A DNA stretch of 64,000 nucleotides from contig NZ_JACJOO010000052.1 of the NCBI RefSeq assembly GCF_014695575.1, positions 62,001 to 126,000 of the forward strand, given 5' to 3'. Source of the stretch: Leptolyngbya sp. FACHB-8. GTDB taxonomy: Bacteria > Cyanobacteriota > Cyanobacteriia > Elainellales > Elainellaceae. Every line of letters starts with the position of its first letter. Positions within the stretch are counted from its first letter, which is position 1. A program made the translations under genes and the position numbers. Of the stretch, positions 3,358-19,600 are shown piece by piece. The notes under the pieces were generated by a model that had not been told where the DNA came from, ran no database searches, and was given only the letters and a program-made list of their open reading frames with translations.

Positions 3358-3429
3358 TGTACAGTGACACATTATTTTCCATCAACGACAGTAATCTGTC
3401 ACCGATGACAAATAATGTGTCACTGTACA
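3358..3429. mobile_element. 72-bp element with Tn7-like / type V-K CAST-type terminal repeats beside tRNA-Val
   Basis: A perfect 19-bp inverted repeat, TGTACAGTGACACATTATT, lies at 3358-3376 and again inverted at 3411-3429. Read inward from the tRNA side it continues TTGTCATCGGTGACAGATTA then CTGTCG. That is the layout I remember for the left end of cyanobacterial type V-K CRISPR-associated transposons, which start TGTACAGTGACA and carry TGTC/TGACAGATTA TnsB sites. Those elements insert next to tRNA genes; this end stops 10 bp from the tRNA 3' end. There is no cargo and no room for any gene, and the flanking 5 bp (TCCGT / GTACA) are not a target duplication. I infer an internally deleted remnant or a MITE-like derivative. 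Confidence covers the inverted repeat plus the family assignment. Confidence 0.75.
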
Positions 3430-3438
3430 GTACATGAA

Positions 3439-3512
<74 letters not shown>

Positions 3513-5723: not shown

Positions 5724-6113
5724 TTATTCGTCGATGCGGTACCGGATGAGCTTGCGGATGTCGCCAAGCGGGAGATTGAGTTCCTGGGCGATCGCTTGTT
5801 CAATATCAGCAAACTCAGCAACCGGAAACTTAAATTCCATCTCCTCTAGAGGCGAGCCAACAGTGCGAATGCTCACCTCGGTAATTTGAGTTTTCCGATT
5901 CACTTCTGCGTCTATCGACACAATGGTAAGGGAAAGCGCCAGGTTGACCTGATGCTGTCCTTCAGCCTCCAGGAGTGTGCCTGCAGGTGACGTTTGGCTG
6001 AGGACGCGGTCAATCATCCAACCGGTTACTAACCAAAATGCCAAGCCGACAGAAGGTAGTAGAAGCCCTATCCAGGTTAAGGTGAGTACGTTGGAAAGCT
6101 TGCGAGGCGGCAT
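5724..6113 (-). CDS. Membrane-anchored cyanobacterial protein of unknown function
   Basis: The protein has 129 residues. A positive N-terminus (MPPRKLSN) is followed by one hydrophobic helix at about residues 11-32. The remaining soluble domain contains alternating beta-type segments and ends IRKLIRYRIDE. I do not recognise a named family. It lies divergently from rppA with 87 bp between the starts, so the two may share a regulatory region, but nothing else links their functions. Confidence 0.75.
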   Translation of the reverse strand: MPPRKLSNVLTLTWIGLLLPSVGLAFWLVTGWMIDRVLSQTSPAGTLLEAEGQHQVNLALSLTIVSIDAEVNRKTQITEVSIRTVGSPLEEMEFKFPVAEFADIEQAIAQELNLPLGDIRKLIRYRIDE

Positions 6114-16600: not shown

Positions 16601-19600
16601 TCAATGCTAGCAGGAGGCGTTGTCATCACATCCTGGAAATCCTCCAGGGTAAGGTCCTCCCGGTCGGGTGGCAGTAAAGGCTCGAGCGGTACAAACGCAA
16701 TCGTTCCTTCAGGTGCAGCACTTGGGGAAAGTTGCTCCACGTCTTCTAAGAAGAGAGGCGGCGGGGGCGGTGCGCTATCTGTAAGTTCTGGGAGGTCTAT
16801 GCCAAACCCAAATAAGTCCTCGTCGAGGGATGTTGCTGTGGGTTCTGGGCTTTCCCCAGAAATGTTCAGCTCCTCCTCGAAGGACAGCTCCACAGGTTGA
16901 GATGGTAGATCAAGGTCAACATCTAATAAGGCATCGGCTGAAGTAGTGGATGGATCCTCAGGAGGTTCACCCTGTTCGTCTGTCGCGGTCGATAAATCAA
17001 GCCATTCGTCGCTTGTGACGCCAGTAGGAGCTTCAGCCAAATTCTGTAAGACATCATCTTGCTCTGTAGAGTCAGATGTGGATAGATTTAACCAAGCCTG
17101 ATCCAGGTCATCATCCAAATCCCCAGAGGACGTGTCAGGCAGTTCTGCCAGAATATCGCTCTGCTCATCAGCACCAGCCGTGGAGAGCTTCAGCCACTCC
17201 TCATCCAAATCCTCATCGGTGGCCTCAGGCAGCTCTGTCAGAGTATCGTCCTGCTCATCAGTATCAGCCGTGGAGAGATCCAGCCACGCTTCGTCTAATT
17301 CTTCTAAGGTGGGCTCAACGAGTTCTGCTGGGGCATCGCTCTGCTCATTAGCATCAGGAGTAGAAAGATTAAGCCACTCCTCATCTAAATCCTCGGCAGT
17401 GGGTTCAGGTAACTCTGTCAGAGTATTGCCCTGTTCATCCGTGTCAACTGTAGAGAGAGCGAGCCATGCTTCGTCCAATTCTTCGGAGGTGGGCTCAGCG
17501 AATTCTGACAAGGCATCACTCTGCTCATCAGCATCAGCCGTGGAGAGATTGAGCCACTCCTCATCCAAATTCTCGATGGTGGGCTCCGTGAGTTCTGCTA
17601 GGGCATCACTCTGCTCATCAGCATCAAGAGTAGAGAGATTGAGCCACTCCTCATCTAAATTCTCAGAGGACGTATCCGGCAGTTCTGTCAGGATGTCACT
17701 TTGCTCATCAGCATCAGGAGTAGAGAGATTGAGCCACTCCTCATCCAAATTCTCGCCGGTGGGTTCCGTGAGTTCTGCCAGGGCATTACTCTGCTCGTCA
17801 GCATCAGCTGTGGAGAGATTGAGCCACTCCTCCTCATCTAAATTCTCAGAGGACGTGTCAGGCAGTTCTGCCAGGATGTCGCTTTGTTCATCAGCATCAG
17901 CCGTCGAGAGATTGAGCCACTCCTCATCCAAATTCTCGCCGGTGGGTTCCGTGAGTTCTGCTGGGGCATCGCTCTGCTCCTCAACATCAGCCGTGGAAAG
18001 ATTGAGCCACTCCTCATCCAAATCCTCGGCGGTGGCCTCAGATAACTCTGTCAGAGTATCGCTCTGCTCCTCAACATCAGCTGTGGAGAGATTGAGCCAC
18101 GCTTCGTCTAATTCTTCTGAGGTTGGTTCCGTGAGTTCTGCCAGGGCATCACTCTGCTCATCAGCATCAGCCGTGGAGAGATTGAGCCACGCTTCGTCTA
18201 ATTCTTCTGAGGTTGGTTCTGTGAGTTCTGCCAGGGCATCACTCTGCTCGTCAGCATCAGCCGTGGGGAGATCGAGCCACTCCTCATCTAAATCCTCGGA
18301 GGACGTGTCAGGCAGTTCTGCTAGGGCATCGCTTTGCTCATCAGAGCCGGCTGTGGAGAGATTGAGCCACTCCTCATCCAAATCCTCAGAGGTGGATTCA
18401 GGAAAACCGGCTAGGATATCGCTCTGCTCATCAGCATCAGCCGTGGAGAGATTAAGCCACTCCTCATCCAAATCCTCAGAGGTAGGTTCCGTGAGTTCTG
18501 CTAAGGTGCTGCCCTGCTCATCAGAGTCATCAACAGAGACAAGCCATTGCTCATCTAGATCCGCTGAGGGAGAGCTTGATGGTTCAGGGAACGATTCAAC
18601 GTCCTCGGTGAGGAAGGTAGATAAATTTAATTCCTCTTCCTCCGTTTCCAGCGGTGTCGGTGGAGTTTCCTCGATAAGTCGATCGATCAGGGCATCATCT
18701 ACAGGGGGAAGGTTTTCCTCCTCAAAGACCGTCAAAGGAAGATCTTCCATGAGGCTTTCGAGCAAGGCTTCAGGAGTCTCTGCTTCTGGGAAGAAGTCCG
18801 TGGTCTGCTCATTGTCCTCCTCTGAACCGAAGTCTTCCATCAGAGACTCTTGAGTGAGGAATATGTCTAGCTCCAGTGCTTCAACCTCTGGGGCAGGCTC
18901 CCCTAATAAATCCTCATCGGTAGTGACGTACGCACTCCAAGGCCCGCTGGGTAACTCAGTGGTTGATTGATCTTCCGGAGCTGCTTCCTCTGGCTCGGTT
19001 GCTGTGTCATGAAGCTCGTCTTCCAGTAGTTCCAGGGTTTCCTCTTCAATGTTGTCTGAGGCAAGATCTCCTAGCAGGAGATCTTCCAGCAGGGGCTCGT
19101 CCTCCACAGGAAATGAGTCTGAACTAGGGGTGCTGAGCTCCTCTTCTAGGAATGCATCGTCACCCTCCATCTCAGGTAGCCTTGTCTCCGGAGAAATAGG
19201 TTCCTCGTCCGGAAGCTCGCGGAATGCATCTTCTAAACTGGTAGAAATATCTTCCGGTTCGTCTGCTGATAAGTCAGACAGAAAGGAAAACTCTTCAGTC
19301 TCTTCACCGGAGGCACGGCCTTCCAATGTTGACAGTTCAGCGTCTAATTGCTGAAGTACGTCCTCATCCACCTGAAGCTCAACCCGAGGTGTCTCAACCA
19401 CGGCCTCACTGACTAATAGATCTTCATCCGGAGATGCTGGAATGTAGGCATCTTCTGGCAGGCTTCCTTCAGAACGCAAAGCATCCAGAGAAGCAGCCGT
19501 ATCTGACAACGCAATCAAATCTTCCAGGGAAGAAATGACATCCGCTGGCATGTGTTGGTTAGCAGCTGCGCGCTCTGCATTAAGTAGTTGAGTATCTTCT

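Follow-up and report, generated by a model that had tools for sequence, protein, structure and literature searches.

A 72-bp end-only unit beside tRNA-Val(GAC) as the probable scar of a type V-K CRISPR-associated transposon in a cyanobacterial genome

Downstream of a tRNA-Val(GAC) gene in a 6.9-Mb cyanobacterial genome (G000) lies a 72-bp unit that matches the terminal sequences of type V-K CRISPR-associated transposons (CASTs) and itself carries no cas12k, tnsB, tnsC, tniQ, tracrRNA, CRISPR array or cargo. We propose, with a probability of roughly three in four, that a full V-K CAST inserted at this tRNA and then collapsed to a scar in which its left end (LE) is joined directly to its right end (RE). 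The window in which the unit was studied, i.e., the whole 64-kb stretch of DNA that was analysed, corresponds to positions 62001-126000 of contig C48.

V-K CASTs serve in genome engineering, and the elements themselves, their tRNA sites and their anchor spacers are already known; to our knowledge, their natural fate has been little studied, and we found no description of end-only V-K remnants (51-78 bp, in several genera) in the open-licence literature. Read as scars, such units in several cyanobacteria would mean that a V-K transposon can shrink, where it once landed, until hardly anything of it is left. The present one would then be a physical record of an RNA-guided transposon in a genome now without detectable Cas12k or V-K TnsB, and CAST history might be readable from footprints of 50-80 bp. 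Two testable questions arise from them: the minimum size of a V-K donor, and a possible protection of the tRNA by TnsB sites left next to it.

Sequence and identity of the two ends

The minus strand of the unit reads TGTACAGTGACACATTATTTGTCATCGGTGACAGATTACTGTCGTTGATGGAAAATAATGTGTCACTGTACA and its distal flank is ACGGAGTTCG. Both termini carry TGTACAGTGACACATTATTT, perfect over 20 bp, which on the tRNA side continues with TGTCATCGGTGACAGATTA, just as a first-pass annotation of this DNA had it. That annotation also gave the correct span and perfect nature of the inverted repeat but set its length at 19 bp instead of 20; likewise, it correctly had the left-end side facing the 3' end of the tRNA but placed it at 10 bp, the actual gap being 9 nt. 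The unit as a whole is an imperfect palindrome, with arms complementary at 29 of 34 positions and a DNA fold (z = -8.3) that none of 200 shuffles equalled. Within the window, the 12-bp tip TGTACAGTGACA, searched with at most one mismatch, occurs only at the two termini (shuffle mean 0.15), the chance expectation of the paired-tip pattern is 0, and the tip pair is present in 3 of the 390 genomes sampled from the class as against none for the reversed control. Hence, chance cannot explain the unit. The coordinates of its parts are collected in Table 1.

Table 1. Parts of the 72-bp unit and of the neighbouring tRNA gene, in window coordinates
Feature	Position	Strand	Basis or remark
72-bp end-only unit, probable V-K CAST scar	3358..3429	(-)	LE to RE on the minus strand, pointing away from the tRNA
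Distal terminal inverted repeat, 20 bp, perfect	3358..3377	(+)	Sequence comparison
tRNA-side terminal inverted repeat, 20 bp, perfect	3410..3429	(-)	Sequence comparison
LE part, approximately positions 1-48 of the unit	3382..3429	(-)	Identity and LE profile HMM
Putative RE tip	3358..3374	(-)	Identity to RE-type ends
Putative LE-RE junction zone	3375..3381	(.)	Profiles, identities and inference
Gap from tRNA 3' end to LE, 9 nt, TTCATGTAC	3430..3438	(.)	
tRNA-Val(GAC), attachment-site gene	3439..3512	(-)	
GTT, predicted Cas12k PAM within the tRNA	3492..3494	(-)	62 nt from the LE
Protospacer position AGAGCACTACCTTGACAT	3474..3491	(-)	Position to which the anchor spacers of the tRNA-Val CASTs in L040, L092, L123 and L141 are directed

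A profile HMM built from 12 V-K CAST LEs of other genomes, none of them from G000, matched the unit over all 45 of the profile's positions (54.4 bits, E 4e-15), which is the second best score of all the sequences scanned and equals that of the training members. The V-K LE box array starting TGTACAGTGAC is thus present, and the alignments agree: the unit is identical at 45/48 positions to the LE of the mini-CAST at locus L092, at 43/45 to that of L102 and at 44/47 to that of the Cas12k-bearing L030. Past approximately 48 bp the identity to CAST LEs falls to the level of chance, and the last 17 bp of the unit are those of an RE-type end in L104 (17/17); of its last 22 bp, 17-18 are identical to each of five CAST-type REs. 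Since the LE identity stops and the RE-type match then takes over, the unit most plausibly comprises an LE of about 48 bp followed by an RE of about 17-22 bp, the assignment within the junction zone being uncertain. The ends are reduced to roughly two boxes on the left, one of them long, and part of a box on the right. The right arm, too short for a firm assignment, scores 20 bits against the LE profile as against 15 bits with the RE profile, which somewhat weakens the case for a collapsed CAST.

The identification of a V-K CAST-like left end in the first-pass annotation is borne out by this profile score and by the match to a real CAST LE, a similarity that runs far beyond the TGTACA tip; nor is the repeat a common hairpin found at many sites, there being one copy per genome. 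As both arms share ACACATTATTT and an LE-like spacing, we also considered an LE/LE palindrome generated by fold-back copying; this was dropped, for the natural RE-type end of L104 has the same variant and the LE profile crosses the centre of the palindrome to position 45. As the LE extends beyond that centre, the palindrome would derive from the normal LE boxes and the terminal repeat, a by-product of terminal inverted repeats combined with quasi-palindromic TnsB boxes.

An LE pattern search of 386 genomes from the phylum returned three matches, in G000, G106 and G369. The last of these (locus L030) has a complete V-K CAST, whose LE, at 19026, faces a tRNA-Phe and whose RE is at 1208, with TnsB, TnsC, TniQ and Cas12k encoded in between. 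The four proteins were recognised from ORF sequences, and a search with the Cas12k then recovered homologues across the family of the host. In 20 further loci fetched with a 23-bp tip pattern, the LE-type ends with V-K boxes lie mostly at ~5-45 nt from the 3' end of a tRNA.

The tRNA-Val(GAC) site and the transposition machinery

In V-K systems the LE comes to lie downstream of a tRNA that points at the element, 46-82 nt from a GTN PAM, and the elements carry a truncated anchor repeat-spacer (PMC9938897). The LE of our unit is downstream of the tRNA at a distance from the GTT within this range, and close counterparts exist at the same gene. At two Nostoc loci (L040 and L092) and two loci of the host's family (L123 and L141), an LE 5-8 nt past tRNA-Val(GAC) is followed by a 17-18-nt exact copy of the anticodon region of the tRNA, joined to CTTTCAACCC. 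The distance from PAM to LE is 58-62 nt in these four, as compared with 62 nt in our unit, and the protospacer AGAGCACTACCTTGACAT of our tRNA differs by one base from theirs. Within the host's family the LE-bearing genomes, among them those of L123 and L141, are G413, G418 and G391, with a distance of 7-8 nt from this tRNA; the gap for CAST LEs at tRNA-Val is overall 5-9 nt, with our 9 nt included. As four other CASTs at this gene carry guides exactly matching their tRNA, its role as a CAST landing site, which the first-pass annotation had suggested, is supported.

Occupancy of the site is not the rule: most of the 31 tRNA-Val(GAC) loci examined in the host's family are without CAST sequence downstream. 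In the same-genus genome G001, a decayed CAST-like end lies past the orthologous tRNA-Val (L023 ~5830-5969), with an anchor region that is recognisable yet mutated; an empty-site comparison with this genome found no alignable sequence beyond the tRNA, the two being too diverged. Downstream of our own LE there is no anchor spacer, whereas it is exact in L040, L092, L123 and L141.

A Cas12k search gave no match in G000 or in G001, while 13 of the 36 genomes of the host's family and G369 were positive. V-K TnsB was likewise without a match in G000 in a search that had no positive control, TniQ was without one in a search whose control was equally silent, and a search for the CRISPR repeat RF01329 recovered nothing from G000 and nothing from G369 either, despite the complete CAST of the latter. 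The host lacks detectable Cas12k and V-K TnsB, and the unit exists as a single exact copy in the 6.9-Mb genome, a search for additional copies having found none; therefore, it is probably a dead scar.

End-only units in other cyanobacteria

An exhaustive exact-pattern scan of contigs for paired tips 43-103 bp apart recovered five further cyanobacterial units of 51-78 bp, to which a sixth, found separately in G126, can be added. None was found in viral contigs. Strikingly alike and of the same architecture is a 70-bp unit in Petrachloros mirabilis (L037), which similarly turns its LE towards a tRNA, 7 nt from its 3' end, in a genome without Cas12k (G496), but differs from ours in that the tRNA is tRNA-His, in belonging to another family and in having an RE tip two bases shorter. 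Nostoc sp. T09, also devoid of Cas12k, has a 51-bp unit 36 nt past an intron-bearing tRNA-Leu (L034; recognised via its group I intron), in which an LE match of 24/24 and an RE match of 37/39 have 12 nt in common, the outcome to be expected of a deletion across a shared box. Units of 52 and 51 bp are respectively found in Nostoc indistinguendum (L038 1399-1450), where Cas12k is in pieces, and Nostoc sp. LEGE 06077 (L040), where there is one copy, with a stop. The G126 unit belongs to locus L092, in a genome with only a broken Cas12k fragment. These Nostoc units resemble ours in being empty fusions of V-K LE and RE tips at or near attachment sites, but at 51-52 bp they are one box shorter; the 51-bp ones are palindromic, and hence their LE side cannot be distinguished. 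Those of L040 and L092 differ further in that a longer remnant, which retains an LE, an anchor spacer and a CRISPR array, has them as its right border. In Mojavia pulchra, which has intact Cas12k copies, a 78-bp unit (L036 6849-7054) lies directly against a tnsC fragment of 46 aa (65% identity) and has an unrelated gene on its other side. Matches to the pair pattern in Streptococcus (L035) and Sphingobacterium (L039 and L041) were set aside as unrelated, with no V-K boxes after TGTACAGTGAC.

The longer remnant of L092 (2580-3259; G126:C1:6260579-6261258) is a 680-bp protein-less V-K unit at tRNA-Val comprising an LE, an exact anchor spacer, a CRISPR array in which five RF01329 repeats are full, and, as its RE, a 51-bp palindrome. 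The inner TGTACA tip of this palindrome meets a CRISPR repeat that is broken off half-way, which looks as though the array had been fused with the end of a transposon, and in the distal flank another transposon end-like sequence starts, TGTGCATTCACAAATTG. The 680-bp unit is bounded by a perfect 5-bp duplication, CTTGT, from which it follows that tRNA-Val has received insertions of protein-less V-K units or of recent parents of such units; no target duplication surrounds any of the free-standing units. In L040 (4794-5352) the tRNA-Val is followed by an LE, an anchor spacer, CRISPR-DR15 repeats and the 51-bp unit, whose TGTACA tip abuts another point of the CRISPR repeat than in L092; here, the target duplication is absent.

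The 52-bp unit of L038 and an LE at L106 2037 both lie just beyond the terminator of a similar non-tRNA small gene with CTCCTCACACC, which is possibly an attachment site other than a tRNA. This gene resembles the cyanobacterial sRNA Yfr1, and Rfam gave no Yfr1 match for it. Finally, units of 168-286 bp, the size of miniature inverted-repeat elements (MITEs), with related tips (LE type TGTACAGTGACTTTTTATTTGTC, RE type ...AATTAAATGAC) occur in L093 (2396-2681), L094 (2192-2392), L095 (2242-2456) and L096 (1760-1927 and 2658-2892), none of them at a tRNA gene or bordered by a 5-bp duplication; the two units of L096 are inverted and bracket ~730 bp.

Collapse in place and the competing origins

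To account for the unit, we envisage that a V-K CAST inserted beside tRNA-Val(GAC) via a tRNA-recognising anchor crRNA, such a guide and such a position being displayed by its relatives. The LE and the RE both hold short TnsB-binding boxes, which recur in direct orientation on the two sides of the element, and loss of the DNA from a box of the LE to the outer box of the RE would then have removed nearly everything, fusing ~48 bp of the LE to ~17-22 bp of the RE and leaving a non-mobile attachment-site scar. We infer both insertion and collapse; what the data show directly is the identity of the ends, the site, its distance and orientation, and the lack of Cas12k. Our unit shares with extant V-K CASTs the end sequence, the layout of the TnsB boxes of the LE, the LE turned towards the tRNA, a GTN PAM within the tRNA at a distance of 58-62 nt and an attachment site used by guide-bearing elements. 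It differs from them in lacking genes, tracrRNA, array, anchor spacer, cargo and target-site duplication, and in keeping only ~48 and 22 bp of the ends. Collapse is favoured by the full Cas12k/TnsB/TnsC/TniQ element of L030, which has the same geometry, and by the independent parallels at tRNA-His (L037), tRNA-Leu (L034) and elsewhere. It is weakened by the lack of a 5-bp target-site duplication (TGTAC vs ACGGA), although most LE-RE pairs lack one too: it was found in one of the six CAST-scale pairs checked.

The first-pass annotation had left the choice between a collapsed CAST and a mini-element mobilised by one; the former is favoured and the latter, which we regard as quite improbable, would be a V-K MITE, with the 72 bp inserted in trans under tRNA guidance by the Cas12k, TnsB, TnsC and TniQ of another CAST. 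Like a MITE, the unit is short and non-coding with perfect 20-bp terminal inverted repeats; similarly built 51-78-bp units recur at attachment sites in several genera, MITE-sized elements with related ends exist (L093-L096), and a protein-less CAST with a perfect duplication is at hand in L092, which counsels against too firm a rejection. However, unlike a MITE, it is single-copy, has no target-site duplication, as is true of every free-standing unit, and has no partner transposase among the proteins detected in its genome, where Cas12k is missing and the TnsB search had no positive control. Moreover, the natural ends of ShCAST hold three TnsB sites in the LE and five in the RE (PMC9527255), far more than 72 bp can accommodate, and a unit of this length would probably be too short for pairing both ends. 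The single copy, the missing duplication, the lack of Cas12k and detectable V-K TnsB and the cut-down ends together lead us to prefer collapse.

Likewise quite improbable, in our estimate, is an origin from tandem CASTs at one tRNA, with a deletion joining the LE of one insertion to the RE of another. The lack of a target duplication would then be expected, and tandem CASTs that shared a tRNA have left LE-like sequence directly adjoining the outside of the RE in L097 (2157) and in L099 (2459); however, no other CAST remains are seen beside our unit.

The scar might also be functional. As a hypothesis, its boxes could draw in TnsB when a new CAST arrives and set off target immunity, thereby shielding the tRNA from V-K CAST re-invasion and being kept by selection. 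TnsB binds every repeat independently of cargo (PMC9527255) and takes apart TnsC filaments (PMC9371665), V-K systems seem to show target immunity (PMC11406308), and our LE is nearly intact as compared with its decayed counterpart in G001. Against this, the tandem remains at L097 and L099 show that transposon ends are no dependable barrier to a further insertion at a tRNA, a recent collapse would account equally for the intactness, and, since our search demanded the outermost bases, their survival is in part an ascertainment effect. Hence, we give such a function little probability. The more general proposition that end-only V-K units arise repeatedly and under selection, whether as minimal trans-guided mobile elements or as TnsB-binding scars that vaccinate the tRNA site, is likewise unlikely. 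An unrelated intergenic hairpin or tRNA terminator resembling CAST ends by chance has next to no probability: the hairpin is strong, but the E-value of the LE profile, a distance and orientation right for a CAST LE, the lack of a T run after the stem and of any terminator call (on which an intrinsic terminator was rejected), the lack of a meaningful RNA family match and the lack of repetition across the genome all speak against it.

Solo LE stubs of ~27-38 bp were also encountered, beside tRNA-Pro (L028 18934-18972) and tRNA-Arg (L110 1940-1966), both in G106, a genome without Cas12k, and beside tRNA-Thr (L105 2047-2079). Each stops abruptly at unrelated sequence, indicating that transposon ends do get trimmed to this size.
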